Below the pieces are notes generated by a model. The model saw only the letters and a program-made list of their open reading frames with translations. It was not told where the DNA came from and did no database searches. The position numbers and the translations under genes are program-made. A stretch of DNA of 64,000 bases from Acidobacteria bacterium Ga0077534 (lineage in GTDB: Bacteria > Acidobacteriota > Blastocatellia > Pyrinomonadales > Pyrinomonadaceae). Numbering within the stretch: position 1 is the first letter of the stretch; every line of letters begins with the position of its first letter. Where the stretch lies: the NCBI GenBank assembly GCA_001464455.1, contig LNEI01000013.1, positions 62,001-126,000 of the forward strand, written 5' to 3'. Positions 15,016 through 57,546 of this stretch are shown one piece after another.

Positions 15016-15091
15016 GGCCAGATAGCTCAGTTGGTAGAGCAGCGGATTGAAAATCCGCGTGTCGGCGGTTCGACCCCGTCTCTGGCCACCA
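15016..15091 (+). tRNA. tRNA-Phe (GAA)
   Basis: A complete 76-base cloverleaf. The acceptor stem GGCCAGA pairs with TCTGGCC, the D-arm is GCTC-AGTTGGTAGA-GC, the anticodon stem GCGGA/TCCGC encloses loop TTGAAAA with anticodon GAA, and the T-arm is GGCGG-TTCGACC-CCGTC. CCA is encoded at 15089-15091. Confidence 0.98.
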
Positions 15092-45174: not shown

Positions 45175-45555
45175 AAACTCAATTGCCGTTGGCTTTAGCC
45201 AACGGATATCGGTATCCGAATTCCTTCGGGCTTTAGCCCAACACGCGCCCGACGTACCGGTTTCCTGCGAACTCAATGTAGCGGCTTCGCTTCTCAATTG
45301 CCGTTGGCTTCTGGTTAAGTGTTCAATGATCTCGCCGCGTCGGAGATGCGGCAAGGTAAGGCTGGTGCGGCTTCACCGCACGGATATCCATAAGATTCCG
45401 GCAACCAGAAGCTCCGCATCAGGCTATTGTCTTTTCGCCGCTTCACGGCTAGGAATTTCAAGATGCCCCATTACCCCAAACCGGTTTCGCAAGATCCTTG
45501 GGACGCAGCTCATCGGTATGGTCTATCGCTCGGACGATGTTATAATTCTGGAAAA
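45175..45555. repeat. Intergenic cluster of small perfect hairpins
   Basis: A non-coding stretch dense in hairpins: CCGTTGG-CTTTAG-CCAACGG (45186-45205), CGGATA-TCGG-TATCCG (45203-45218), GGGCTTTAGCCC (45228-45239), GTGCGG-CTTCA-CCGCAC (45365-45381), plus a long-range pair GGCTTCTGGTT/AACCAGAAGC around 45309 and 45403. It resembles the other compound hairpin elements in the window but lacks clear terminal repeats. The DnaC-like promoter lies at its right end. Confidence 0.75.
45538..45546 (+). promoter_or_regulatory. Extended -10 promoter of the DnaC-like gene
   Basis: TGTTATAAT is a perfect extended -10. The start codon at 45556 lies ten bases downstream, about where transcription should begin, so the mRNA is probably leaderless or nearly so. 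Confidence 0.6.
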
Positions 45556-46323
45556 ATGCCTGAAAACAAATCAAAAAACTCCATTCTAAAGGCCGTCCCA
45601 ACGCGCGTCGGAGCTGATCCTGACGAGTGCCCGAAATGCTTCGGGAGCGGGATGGAGATCGTCACCGGCAAGGGGGCGAGGATATGCGATTGCCGTAAGC
45701 TTAAGGCCAAGAAGGGCCAGTTTGAGAGCGTTCGGCTGCCGCGTCGTTACGATGGCTTTCACTTCTCGACCTACAAACCGCAGTCTCCGTCGCAGGCCGA
45801 GGCATTCAAATACGCCCAGACCCTAACCCACGAATACCCCGCGGTCGAGCGCGGACTTTTGCTGATGGGAACGGTCGGCGTCGGCAAAACACATCTCGCG
45901 GTCTCGATACTCAAGGGGTTGACCGAACGCGGTTTCAATTGCCTATTCTACGAGTTTGGGACGCTTCTCAAGGAGATCCAGGATTCGTATAACCCAAACA
46001 CGCATGCGTCGGAGCTTGGCGTTTTAGCTCCGGTCCTGAATGCTGAGATCCTCGTTCTCGATGAGCTGGGGGCTTCGAAGCCGACCGACTGGGTCCGCGA
46101 CACCATGGCTCACGTCATCAATACTCGCTACAACGACAAGCGGCTCACGATCTTCACCACCAACTACCTCGACGACCGCCGCAACGATCGAGACGAACTC
46201 CTGGAAGACAGAATCGGGACGCGTCTGAGGTCAAGGCTTTTCGAGATGTGCAAAACAGTAACGATGGACGGGCGGGATTTCAGACGATCGTTCGACGTAA
46301 CAAATGTAAAAGCCCGCTCGTAA
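45556..46323 (+). CDS. DnaC/IstB-like AAA+ ATPase with N-terminal zinc motif
   Basis: A 255-residue AAA+ protein like helicase loaders. The longer frame to 45427 crosses hairpins, so ATG 45556 is preferred. Residues 20-45 hold a zinc-binding motif CPKCFGSG...CDCRK, as in DnaC/DnaI-type loaders. Walker A is GTVGVGKTHLAVS (about 100-112), Walker B ILVLDELGASKP (about 165-176), and the arginine-rich end is DRIGTRLRSRLFEMCKTV. No transposase is adjacent, which argues for a replicative helicase loader rather than IstB. The last codons (Lys-Ala-Arg-Ser-stop) are contributed by the first unit of the tandem repeat at 46308. Confidence 0.88.
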   Translation: MPENKSKNSILKAVPTRVGADPDECPKCFGSGMEIVTGKGARICDCRKLKAKKGQFESVRLPRRYDGFHFSTYKPQSPSQAEAFKYAQTLTHEYPAVERGLLLMGTVGVGKTHLAVSILKGLTERGFNCLFYEFGTLLKEIQDSYNPNTHASELGVLAPVLNAEILVLDELGASKPTDWVRDTMAHVINTRYNDKRLTIFTTNYLDDRRNDRDELLEDRIGTRLRSRLFEMCKTVTMDGRDFRRSFDVTNVKARS

Positions 46324-50540: not shown

Positions 50541-53003
50541 TCAAGGGCATGCCTGTGCATTCGCCGACAGAACACCTGCATTACTGACGGTTATTTTGAA
50601 GCAACTCCCGTTCGGCGACTGGATTATCAGGCTGTTTGGATTGTTCTCAATGTAGATGTTCCCGACCACATGAAGGCGGGCTTTCGGTGCGGTCGTATTG
50701 ATCCCCACGCTGGTGGTCGCGGTAGCATTGTTTACTCCGTTAATGCTGCCTATTACGACCGAATTGTCCTGCGTCACGAGAGCTTTCGCACCGATGGCGG
50801 TCGCATTATTCAGATTCGGGGCCCCGACATCTGCTTGACTACCGATGAGAGTGTTGTCATTTCCTATCGTGTTTGACAGGCCAGATAAAGTGCCGAAGTA
50901 GGCGTTGTAGTCACCTGTGGTATTCCCGATGCCCGCGGATGACCCGACAAATGCGTTGAGGTTTCCGCTCGTGTTTGCAACGCCAGCTTCTTGGCCAAAG
51001 AAGACATTGATCGAACCAGTGGTGTTAAGAATGCCCGCATATCTGCCAAAGAATGTGTTGCTATCACCAGTAGTATTGGCAGAGCCCGCACTCTGGCCAA
51101 AGAACGTGTTGCGGTCGCCAGTAGTATTAGCAGAGCCCGCGTTTTGGCCAAAGAAGGCGTTGTTGCTGCCAGTTGTGACCGATGATCCCGCACCCGCCCC
51201 AGCGAAAAGATTATTGGTGCCTAGGTTACTCAATATGCGATTGCCGCCTATGTTGTACTGGGTCGTTGCGTTGACCACGTTGCCCGACAAAGTGCCTGAA
51301 AAAGTCTTGTTGCCGCCGATCGTCTGAGCGGTCGTCAGATCGACAAAATTCTGTGTTGCCGAACCGGTGCCGCCGTTACCCACTGGTACGATCCCAAGTC
51401 GTGAATTACTTAATGTGCCGGTGGTGATGTTGCTTGCATTTAGGTTGGTGATGCTTGCTCCGCTGATGCTGCCGGTAAAAGTACCTGTGACATTAAGATC
51501 TCCCGGTATCCGAACCGTATCCAGACCAGCGCTCCGCCCCAGAACGATCGTGTTGCTCGTCGAAACCTGCGTTTCGGCCCCGATCGCGGTCGCGAAAGTC
51601 AGATTCCCTGAACCAACGTCAGAGCGGTCGCCAAGCAGCGTATTTTTGCTCCCCGTAATATTTGTGCCGCCGACAATTGTGCCGACAAACGTATTCGAGT
51701 TTCCAGTTGTAGTATTGCTTCCGGCATTCGCGCCAAAAAACGAATTTTCGCTCCCTGTTGTGTTATCGAACCCGGCGGAACGTCCAAAGAAAGAGTTCGT
51801 GCTTCCGGTCGTGTTCAACAATCCGCTGCTGCGACCGAAAAACGAATTCGCGTTTCCCGTGGTATTAGTGAAACCCGCAATATTCCCGAAAAAGGTATTT
51901 GCTGATCCAGTCGTGTTCCCGATCCCAGCCGAGCGTCCGCCAAATGCGTTCTCAGTTCCGGCGAAACTCAAAGCCCTTTCACTGCCGAGGTTAAATTGGG
52001 TCAAGGCGGTAACAGTGTTGCCTGTAAGCGTGCCCGAAACCGTGCCGTTGCCGACAATATTGAAGTTCGCCCCGCCTTGCGGCGTCGTCTGATTGAAGAT
52101 CGCGTTTGGCGCCGTCGAAGATATGGTGAGTGTGTTGAGTGTCGGCGTGATCGACATATTCGAGCCGGCAGCTAGCGTGACGTTTTCGGTCAGGCTGTTA
52201 AGGCTTCGCACAGCGACACCGTTCGAGATCTTAACCGCGGTAACGGCACCCGTAGCAAGTTGCGGAGTATCAACGCCTCCGTTTGCGATGGATAATGCCA
52301 CATTCCCGCTCGAGCCGCCGCCGTTCAACCCGGTCCCGGCCGTCACACCGGTAATCGTCCCGCCTCCGCCACCGGTGCTTGTTTCATCAGTCGCGGGCTG
52401 CCATTGGCCCGACGTGCTATTGAATTTCAGCACCTGTCCATTTGCTGGTGCGGTTGTCGAGACATTCGTTCCTCTAAGCCTTGCCACCGTCGTCGCTCCC
52501 TGGGTTCCGGCCACATCGCCGACGAGAGTTCCGGTGAAATTCGTTGCGGTCGCTGCGTTTGTGGCATTGGTCGCATTTGTGGCCGTAGCAGCGTTGGCAG
52601 CATTTGTCGCATTGGAAGCTATATCGGCCGTGAGACTTTTGATCGCGTAAGGCGAACTCGCGACCCGCTGTCGCGGAGCGAGCGTCGAGAAAGCACCGCC
52701 GCCGCTCGTCCTGACGCGGATCTCCAGCCACCTGTCGGCACCCGGAAAACTCACACCGAAATCGAGATTGACCGAGAAAACGCCATTAGTTGCCGTTATT
52801 CCGGTCCGGTTCAGCGTCGACCCCACCTGTGGCCCGCCGAGGGCTGATTCGAATAACGCAAACTCAAAATCGAACTGCCCATTTGCAGGCGAACCCGCGT
52901 TCGTCAGATTACCCTGATACGAAAAGTCCGTCGTTTGGGCCACGAGGCCGACGCTTAGAAAGCAAACGAACAGAACTACGCCCAAACCCCTTAATATTCT
53001 CAT
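50541..53003 (-). CDS. Large repeat-containing surface protein
   Basis: An 820-residue secreted protein: signal peptide (GLGVVLFVCFLSVGLVAQ), a beta-domain (about 24-120) that resembles tail-collar-like N-terminal regions, an Ala/Thr/Asn-rich stretch, then two blocks of a 17-residue repeat (about 350-455 and 605-710) of the form NTTGSxNxFFGxxAGxx. Regular Gly and Phe spacing suggests a beta-helical or fibre-like stalk. The C-terminal 100 residues include TTSVGINTTAPKARLHVVGN, a sequence typical of fibre-end domains. GGAGGGAAG precedes ATG 53003. It is probably a surface adhesin or fibre; no anchor or secretion partner is encoded nearby. Confidence 0.85.
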   Translation of the reverse strand: MRILRGLGVVLFVCFLSVGLVAQTTDFSYQGNLTNAGSPANGQFDFEFALFESALGGPQVGSTLNRTGITATNGVFSVNLDFGVSFPGADRWLEIRVRTSGGGAFSTLAPRQRVASSPYAIKSLTADIASNATNAANAATATNATNATNAATATNFTGTLVGDVAGTQGATTVARLRGTNVSTTAPANGQVLKFNSTSGQWQPATDETSTGGGGGTITGVTAGTGLNGGGSSGNVALSIANGGVDTPQLATGAVTAVKISNGVAVRSLNSLTENVTLAAGSNMSITPTLNTLTISSTAPNAIFNQTTPQGGANFNIVGNGTVSGTLTGNTVTALTQFNLGSERALSFAGTENAFGGRSAGIGNTTGSANTFFGNIAGFTNTTGNANSFFGRSSGLLNTTGSTNSFFGRSAGFDNTTGSENSFFGANAGSNTTTGNSNTFVGTIVGGTNITGSKNTLLGDRSDVGSGNLTFATAIGAETQVSTSNTIVLGRSAGLDTVRIPGDLNVTGTFTGSISGASITNLNASNITTGTLSNSRLGIVPVGNGGTGSATQNFVDLTTAQTIGGNKTFSGTLSGNVVNATTQYNIGGNRILSNLGTNNLFAGAGAGSSVTTGSNNAFFGQNAGSANTTGDRNTFFGQSAGSANTTGDSNTFFGRYAGILNTTGSINVFFGQEAGVANTSGNLNAFVGSSAGIGNTTGDYNAYFGTLSGLSNTIGNDNTLIGSQADVGAPNLNNATAIGAKALVTQDNSVVIGSINGVNNATATTSVGINTTAPKARLHVVGNIYIENNPNSLIIQSPNGSCFKITVSNAGVLSANAQACP

Positions 53004-56733: not shown

Positions 56734-57024
56734 TTCATAGTTGTAAAATATCAGCTTCCAAACCCGAGAAAACCTGAATTTTGCACCTCTTTCAAAACTT
56801 TTTTTATTTTTTTTCGCGCCATAAACTGAATCCTGTACTAACAGAGAAATATGAGTCACAGCGCGTTAATATTGTGTTAATTCGACTTGTTTCAACGCGG
56901 CTGATCTTGTCCACAGAGCAATCACAGGATTTCCACAGCATATGCACAGAACGCCCGTGTTTATTGGGCAATAGTTAAAGTACTTTCTACTTGACACTGA
57001 AAATAGTGGGTGTAAGATGTAATC
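56734..57024. other. Intergenic region with AT-rich tract and DnaA-box-like sequences
   Basis: An AT-rich run (about 56795-56815) is followed by three same-strand nonamers resembling DnaA boxes: TTGTCCACA (56907-56915, 8 of 9 to TTATCCACA), ATTTCCACA (56929-56937) and ATATGCACA (56940-56948, 7 of 9 each). The ncRNA promoter lies 40 bases further on. No protein gene is here. Confidence 0.5.
56991..57018 (+). promoter_or_regulatory. Promoter of the candidate large ncRNA
   Basis: A consensus -35 TTGACA (56991-56996), a 16-base spacer and -10 TAAGAT (57013-57018). Transcription should start near 57025, at the left end of the structured region. Confidence 0.75.
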
Positions 57025-57546
57025 ACAGTCGAGGTTGCTTACGGGCACTTTGACCGGCACCGAGAGGTGGAGCGGACGCGGTGACGCGATCGTTCGAGGG
57101 CAGAAGGAGCGGAAAGCCGCTGTCTGGTACGCTCGGAGCCGAAGCCGAAAGGCTTGCTAGGATCGGGACGAAAGGAACGATCTGAGTTGCTCGGATAAAA
57201 ACGAGTAACACTCATTGGAAATGATCAGCCATTGAGAGCTACGCCGCTCACTTTCTCTTCGGAGAATTGCTGAGCCTCGTTGCCGGGAACGTAACCGGCG
57301 GTGGAGGAAAAGCCACCACAACAAAAACCTAATGGTACCAGACGCGAGAGCGTCACGAGGAGAGAAATCAATTTGGGTACTGACCGGAGAAGGCTCCCCG
57401 CAGAGTGTCTTCGGAATACAAAATCGGTGGTTCGAACGTGTACATGCGAGAGCCACCAACCTTTTGAAGAAGCACTTCGGTGTTGCGAAAGAGGAATAAC
57501 AAATGCGTTGTTTTGAGCAATCAAAGCAACGCATTTGTTTTTTATT
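57025..57546 (+). ncRNA. Candidate large structured non-coding RNA (about 520 nt)
   Basis: Between a promoter at 56991 and a strong terminator at 57498 lies a region packed with short hairpins closed by stable tetraloops: AAGCC-GAAA-GGCTT, GACGC-GAGA-GCGTC, TCTC-TTCG-GAGA, AGCAC-TTCG-GTGTT, CGCG-GTGA-CGCG, with GCCGG/CCGGC and GGTGG/CCACC stems. The frames crossing it on either strand are Cys/Ser/Arg-rich translations without a ribosome binding site, typical of RNA genes. I looked for RNase P, tmRNA, SRP and 6S signatures and did not find them. It lies directly upstream of obgE but has its own terminator. It may be a new or very diverged RNA class. Confidence 0.7.
57498..57546 (+). terminator. 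Terminator of the candidate ncRNA
   Basis: AACAAATGCGTTG (57498-57510) and CAACGCATTTGTT (57527-57539) form a perfect 13-bp stem, extended inward by TTTGA/TCAAA around GCAA, and followed by a T-rich tract. Confidence 0.95.

Follow-up and report, generated by a model that had tools for sequence, protein, structure and literature searches.

What fills the gap upstream of obgE? Between the end of the preceding open reading frame (56733) and the start of obgE (57596), the window, by which we mean the whole stretch of 64,000 nucleotides that was analysed, leaves a gap of 862 nt. An earlier note, made from the sequence alone, had put the gap at 860 bases and had seen in it a large, structured RNA with a promoter and a terminator of its own, possibly a new class, possibly a very diverged known one. 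The length is practically as claimed, and we have next to no doubt that the RNA class is real. When tested against Rfam 15 it is new: no family matches above cut-off. We call it a categorically new RNA class, which, more widely, belongs with the handful of large ornate RNAs known from bacteria. To our knowledge, few bacterial RNA classes longer than 500 nt have been described.

The gene, its signals and its neighbours

The predicted RNA has about 520 nt, and positions 57026–57545 of the window read as a stand-alone gene with a sigma-70-type promoter and an intrinsic terminator:

56976–56995, + strand: upstream block TAAAGTNNTTTCTACTTGAC, conserved (also visible in the sequences of relatives), which runs into the −35 hexamer
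56991–57018, + strand: sigma-70-type promoter TTGACA-16-TAAGAT (promoter scan; conserved in 70 copies)
57026–57545, + strand: RNA gene with inferred ends (5' by the promoter, 3' by the terminator); conserved in relatives
57498–57545, + strand: intrinsic terminator, 19-bp stem and T tract (terminator scan; double changes)

The TTGACA hexamer occupies 56991–56996 and is separated by 16 nt from a TAAGAT that ends at 57018, with 10 of 12 matches. The terminator stem spans 57498–57539 and is followed by the T tract. Taken alone, the promoter scan proves little. Two promoter-like sites were found in the region where 0.8 were expected, and one terminator where chance would yield 1.1. The patterns as such thus occur at about chance frequency, and the two signals are credible because both are conserved in relatives. 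The hexamers match on average 9.76 of 12 positions in 70 copies (L180 and L188 being left out) versus 7.77 in shuffles, and in the terminator every pair counted has changed on both sides among the copies. The promoter had thus been read correctly in the earlier note. The terminator with its U-tract is likewise there; its stem, given as 13 bp, was underestimated. In the genome of the window, the block TAAAGTNNTTTCTACTTGAC finds no match but itself at up to two mismatches.

A protein-coding gene was rejected, since no frame is conserved open across copies, in line with the first impression that no protein frame was credible. In 70 copies (again without L180 and L188), the six frames, read from a fixed anchor in the core, contain on average 4.1 to 7.1 stops per frame; in each of them some copy retains no more than 22 codons around the anchor, and for any given frame at most one of the 70 copies lacks a stop throughout the element. 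The minus strand is poor in stops (median longest open stretch 115 codons versus 92.5 in shuffled sequence), which we put down to composition. A long antisense frame in any single copy therefore means little.

The position of the element could suggest a cis-regulatory leader of obgE. In at least 18 of 67 loci, and so in the window, that gene does follow within 200 nt on the same strand; several of these loci have rpmA upstream. A terminator, however, lies between the RNA and obgE. Downstream of this RNA, other genera have unrelated genes, often in the opposite orientation: there the RNA is found between HIT-like and VOC-like genes or in other places, and the downstream genes lie on either strand. 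(HIT, VOC, EamA, rpmA, nadD and rsfS are names given from reading the sequences, without profile searches.) The flanking genes differ by clade, and the RNA is therefore not an obgE leader. Synteny rejects this reading, to which we give hardly any credence.

Distribution, fold and comparison with known classes

Judged from these searches, the class would comprise structured non-coding RNAs of about 500–650 nt, usually single-copy and present in most of the genomes searched from Pyrinomonadaceae, the Acidobacteriota family to which the window belongs. By BLAST the element was found in 24 of 40 relatives, i.e., in 24 of 25 members of the genus and in none of 15 from other families. A covariance model of the core (R1) matched 82 of the 162 genomes searched in the class. 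With R2, a core model made for the whole family, matches were obtained in 84 of 119 Pyrinomonadaceae genomes, among them 54 of the 69 high-quality ones. R2, like alignment A3, was built on 36 of 72 copies that had been hand-picked for diversity; among its 84 genomes one is doubtful (G142, 22 bits) and one holds a partial match (G127). In 396 genomes of the phylum R2 yielded 29 matches, 24 of them in Pyrinomonadaceae. The five outside, at 17.5–22.8 bits, were taken for chance; alignments were inspected for two of these and for a similar second match in the window's own genome. No match was obtained with R2 in 35 of the 119 family genomes. Nearly complete ones are among them, which implies that the RNA can be lost and is not essential everywhere.

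A single copy is present in 82 of the 84 matched genomes and two copies in the remaining two. The two copies differ in each of these (G128 with L175 and L176; G083 with L179 and L180) and may reflect real duplication or mixed bins. One lineage (L188 and L051) has other sequence, with DnaA-box-like words, in place of the first ~80 positions; this variant is either 5'-truncated or rearranged.

The 520-nt strand folds with a minimum free energy of −208.9 kcal/mol, which corresponds to z = −7.5 against 100 dinucleotide shuffles. A consensus structure of 151 pairs was derived from 72 distinct copies with a mean pairwise identity of 62%; L051, L110, L111, matches of 100 bits or less, spans below 440 model positions and duplicates had been left out. 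Its parts are the following:

57028–57054, + strand: hairpin 1, 10 pairs, 7 of them with changes on both sides
57055–57141, + strand: domain with a 9-pair closing helix, double changes in 9 of 9 closing pairs
57078–57087, + strand: conserved GNRA hairpin inside that domain, from the alignment
57142–57155, + strand: hairpin with a C-GAAA-G loop, loop and closing pair identical in 72 of 72 copies
57186–57209, + strand: hairpin with the near-invariant loop GGAUAAAAAC, double changes in 7 of 8 pairs
57239–57341, + strand: core, the most conserved part and basis of model R1 (alignment, pair counts)
within 57239–57341, + strand: core hairpins GCUC/GAGC and GCCGG/CCGGC, the latter with CGUAA in the loop
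within 57239–57341, + strand: core hairpin GGUGG-AGGAAAAG-CCACC with invariant stem; linker ACAAAAACCUAA
57333–57382, + strand: helix GGCACC/GGUGCU (in the window GGUACC/GGUACU) that encloses a variable arm
57384–57414, + strand: helix CCGGAGA/UCUUCGG with an internal CCGC motif
57426–57457, + strand: long hairpin with apical GUAC at 57440–57443, a candidate symmetric kissing loop
57458–57500, + strand: small hairpin (57469–57486) inside a further complementary helix of CCUU/AAGG type that RNAalifold had missed

The many short hairpins that the earlier note had described over some 520 bases are thus borne out by a strong fold, and GNRA loops are indeed present and conserved. The loop at 57081–57084 is of GNRA type in 71 of 72 copies (GUGA, GCGA, GCAA, GUAA or GAAA), the remaining copy being unaligned there, while C-GAAA-G at 57146–57151 occurs in all 72. 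From these features a compact multi-domain fold, held together by GNRA and A-rich contacts, may be inferred. Core analyses were done without the near-identical L030; L051 was left out of one of them, and the partial L061 out of the first alignment. At 57220–57229 of the window the pair that closes a loop switches between U-A and G-C around GAUC, GAAC or GACC (E = 0.17).

Covariation was tested in 71 copies by an R-scape-like procedure, the G statistic with average-product correction, against a null in which substitutions were re-dealt along a FastTree tree. L188, the first ~80 positions of which do not match, was omitted from these tests and from alignment A4. All eight pairs with E ≤ 0.05 fall inside the structure. 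Once 80% or more standard pairs are required, the score becomes 17 of 17 at E ≤ 0.05 and 22 of 24 at E ≤ 0.5. In a two-set test, which considers only pairs of the structure, 53 of 151 pass and 98 are not significant. Pair counting in A4 (71 copies) points in the same direction. Standard pairs make up 88.0% of the paired cells versus 74.8% in shuffles and 34–42% when partners are slid by 1–3 columns; 115 of 146 pairs have changed on both sides, and cells with double changes number 1554, while shuffles have 522 of them and slid structures no more than 403. An extra helix at the 3' end has a complementarity of 4.66 with its own partner, versus 3.78 when partners are re-dealt (maximum 4.04 in 200 draws). 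It has to be kept in mind that the same sequences served both to derive the structure and, later, to test it. Covariation in relatives, proposed at the outset as a check, is nevertheless strong by both approaches, and the outcome that would have refuted the RNA, lack of conservation and of covariation, did not materialize: the element is conserved in 20 of the 29 Pyrinomonadaceae genera.

Could it still be a housekeeping RNA in disguise? Its size range and single copy would suit RNase P RNA or tmRNA, each of which likewise has one clear copy per genome. Both are, however, separately present in the same genome. RNase P RNA (RF00010) has its only match on contig C9 (22352–22738, 281 bits), the small SRP RNA (RF00169) on C18 (90799–90897, 63 bits), and the only tmRNA match (RF00023) above cut-off lies on C25 (2810–3183, 163 bits), none of 13 weaker ones being on C13, the contig that carries the window. 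A candidate for 6S RNA (RF00013) was seen in the same genome (G000, C2:40517–40717), at 39.1 bits below the cut-off of 46.4. Signatures of these four had been reported absent from the locus by eye, and rightly so: three of them, and a 6S-like candidate, are found elsewhere in the genome.

The search with all 4227 models of Rfam 15, which the earlier note had also recommended, returned at gathering cut-offs a tRNA at 15016 as the sole match in the window and nothing at the RNA gene. By E-value, the copy of the window and two diverged copies from other genera gave matches below cut-off only, nearly all of them on the terminator hairpin; a single one lay inside the element (IMES-4, 17.7 bits, E = 5.9). 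Gathering-level matches were also absent from three loci with copies and from the contigs L110 and L111 discussed below. A diverged housekeeping RNA is, therefore, barely conceivable, and the alternative of a very diverged known class has become unlikely with the housekeeping RNAs sitting at other loci of the same genome. The suggestion of a new class gains support from the lack of a Rfam match above cut-off, which had been named as the other outcome that would refute it, together with conservation and covariation.

The large ornate RNAs deserve a closer look. OLE, GOLLD, ROOL and raiA, the families of which are presumably among the 4227 models, gave no Rfam match above cut-off for the new RNA; structures were not compared. 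The OLE RNA of Bacillota is described as similar in size (~600 nt) and ornate in fold like the new RNA, and as having known protein partners, whereas the new RNA belongs to another phylum and no constant neighbour gene was found for it. GOLLD and ROOL are large and ornate and self-associate via kissing loops and A-minor contacts (PMC12286853); the new RNA differs by its lack of a Rfam match above cut-off and by the absence of copies from the phage and plasmid records searched. The raiA-motif RNA (ModT) is described as a structured non-coding RNA of many bacterial species (PMC11706538). By cryo-EM it is a monomer (PMC12286853), and the new RNA does not match it in Rfam either. In the literature on structured RNAs of Pyrinomonadaceae or Acidobacteria, on RNA phages and on DnaA with non-coding RNA, we did not find the RNA described, with the reservation that subscription papers mostly remained out of scope.

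DnaA boxes upstream of the promoter

While its claim of an RNA holds, the earlier note had foreseen neither a self-complementary loop nor the array of DnaA boxes that precedes the promoter:

56907–56948, + strand: three degenerate DnaA-box-like 9-mers, one mismatch each
56907, 56929 and 56940, + strand: the boxes TTGTCCACA, ATTTCCACA and ATATGCACA, at about −119, −97 and −86 from the predicted start

Exact boxes are missing upstream of the window's RNA, and in the window overall they are no commoner than expected by chance. In many relatives exact boxes do occur at positions of the −119/−97/−86 type. Over 81 loci the density of DnaA-box-like words amounts to 13.2 per kb in the 250 nt above the element and to 1.09 per kb elsewhere in the same loci. 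Between −230 and −31, 80 loci contain on average 3.11 boxes with at most one mismatch (2.01 exact), as compared to 0.77 in dinucleotide shuffles; at least three are present in 55 of the 80 loci versus 4.2% of the shuffles, and in 64 of the 80 no other 200 nt of the locus are as rich in boxes as this stretch. The preferred starts are near −206, −132, −120, −97 and −86. No or only one box is found in 15 of the 80 loci, mainly in genera g36 and g42. Three of 83 loci had been left out of this count (L180, L051 and one near a contig end). The count is a description with controls and not an independent test, as the pattern had first been noticed on nearly the same loci.

The exact double box is rare. 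In 14 genomes it occurs one to five times each, 34 times in total; in 13 of them it is found above the RNA, and in five it is the only one in the genome. The 14 genomes had mostly been chosen as an exact pair was expected there. One further exact double box, in G097, adjoins dnaA; in G084, G087 and G089, two sites separated by about 1.8 kb may possibly do the same.

Arrays of boxes with an AT-rich stretch nearby are reminiscent of a chromosome origin, and the RNA could then be an origin-linked transcript. In the genome of the window, dnaA is located on another contig (C27) with box clusters of its own. In G105 and G058 the sampled GC skew flips sign at dnaA and not at the RNA, yet it flips elsewhere too, and in G097 it shows no stable change at either place. 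GC skew is weak and noisy in this family, which leaves the skew test with little power and the question unsettled on this count. Some genera, moreover, have kept the RNA without the boxes. On the position of dnaA and its own box clusters, an origin at this place is unlikely, and the reading as a whole seems very improbable to us. We think that the boxes belong to the promoter of the RNA rather than to oriC.

Boxes at conserved places upstream of the promoter, as one would demand of a DnaA-controlled gene, are thus present in most loci. Control of the RNA gene by DnaA appears likely to us, although both the binding and its effect on transcription are inferred. DnaA-regulated promoters likewise have clusters of DnaA boxes upstream (PMC8203912); the regulated genes named in the literature searched code for proteins. 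No large structured RNA under DnaA control turned up in the literature on DnaA and non-coding or small RNAs, as far as it was accessible.

Tight clusters of boxes outside oriC are also known to serve as titration or reactivation sites, such as datA and DARS in E. coli. The RNA might accordingly be real and new, the boxes being no more than an adjacent site of this kind without any control of its transcription. The small number of double boxes per genome, and the lack of boxes beside the RNA in some genera, would be compatible with such a site. A separate titration site, however, need not keep its distances to a promoter or follow the RNA; the boxes do hold preferred distances and accompany the RNA across gene contexts, also where a gene other than obgE comes next (L163, L182–L185), which counts against titration. 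We consider it improbable, though by no means negligible, and retain DnaA control as the preferred reading.

A self-complementary loop, phage contigs and possible meaning

The hairpin at 57426–57457 ends in a tetranucleotide that reads GUAC in 72 of 82 copies, GCGC in one, GGCC in one, GUGC in three and GACG in five (the 83-sequence set without the short L179, L061 and L291, and with L166 lacking the loop). In 77 of the 82 the loop is self-complementary, in the three GUGC copies by means of wobbles. In the five GACG copies, a single clade of the tree that adjoins the GGCC copy, the palindrome is broken. The palindrome switches at adjacent bases, which excludes pairing within one chain as the cause. 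In OLE and GOLLD, symmetric kissing loops change from GGCC to GAUC or AGCU (PMC12286853). OLE is a dimer, the palindromic tetranucleotide of which changes as a unit (PMC12286853), comparable to GUAC/GCGC/GGCC in the new RNA. The same argument that supports the kissing loops of OLE and GOLLD leads us to propose a homodimer here. Its basis is sequence only, with two strict switches in favour and one clade against, and a homodimer or higher assembly must be regarded as a fair guess with the balance slightly tipped against it. A UGAUCA loop was considered as a second palindrome and rejected, as GAAC and GACC variants are common.

Phages with single-stranded RNA genomes have no DNA stage. Two IMG/VR contigs, L110 (2–313, ~312 nt) and L111 (203–391, 189 nt), carry pieces of the new RNA that share about 90% identity with the copies found in genus g36; both contigs encode maturation proteins of such phages, and L111 also a replicase (Pfam PF03863, PF03431). 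The absence of a DNA stage makes RNA the most likely source of the joined piece. The contigs thus weakly support transcription, perhaps even abundance, of the RNA, for which direct expression data are lacking. The piece in L110 makes up the terminal part of the third phage frame, as would suit a chimaera better than a functional phage. The contigs could be assembly or library chimaeras or result from DNA carry-over; real recombination is also possible. In a chimaera control, an RNase P pattern retrieved 36 contigs, none of which matched four phage protein queries. Three further patterns of the RNA retrieved 13, 7 and 9 contigs from IMG/VR. Apart from L110 and L111, these had at most short weak matches: L152 (47 nt, E = 3e-4) as well as L227 and L230 (E = 0.0055). 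L142 and L146 are also ssRNA phages, but have the motif inside a long open frame and were taken for chance.

Is the RNA then of phage or mobile-element origin, be it an intron or a relative of ROOL and GOLLD? The latter two are often phage-borne, and two phage contigs do hold pieces of the new RNA. Both, however, are ssRNA phages with partial fragments, which suits chimaeras; no match was found in 50,697 phage and 72,556 plasmid records, and a single copy in 82 of 84 genomes does not favour mobility. We therefore attach very little weight to this origin.

As the best explanation of the whole, a new, DnaA-controlled, trans-acting and possibly dimeric RNA appears quite likely. The data establish conservation of sequence and structure, a promoter and a terminator of its own, independence from neighbours and, in most copies, DnaA boxes at preferred places. 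Transcription would start from the sigma-70 promoter under the replication initiator DnaA, and two copies might pair via the GUAC loop. The product may function in trans, be it structurally or as part of a ribonucleoprotein, and its amount would be tied to the replication state; its target is unknown. No protein partner was found: TROVE/Ro60 had matches in just 10 of 119 genomes, mostly to a short stretch of the profile, and was dismissed. Some of the large bacterial RNAs with solved structures form complexes of RNA only (PMC12286853). A role in coupling growth with replication remains tentative. Still more speculative is the idea of an ornate RNA that is synthesized at times set by DnaA, assembles into homodimers or larger complexes and works as an RNA machine coupling replication to growth in Pyrinomonadaceae, with ssRNA phages occasionally taking pieces of it.

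The class spans 20 of 29 genera of its family, its covariation is good enough for modelling, and its core is small enough for searches. It offers a regulatory lead in DnaA and a testable lead on assembly in the GUAC loop, and would allow one to ask directly whether a structured RNA takes part in replication control.

Other parts of the window may be mentioned in passing. A frame at 45427–46323 (+ strand), 11 kb from the RNA, reads as a helicase loader of the DnaC/DnaI type and has a weak hit to the DnaA model (24.5 bits). In G105, G022, G013 and G109 this model likewise gives weak matches, 7–9 kb from the RNA. At 50541–53003 (− strand), a frame of 820 amino acids contains many NTTGxxNxFFGxxAG-like repeats and, by reading, is perhaps a surface- or fibre-like repeat protein.
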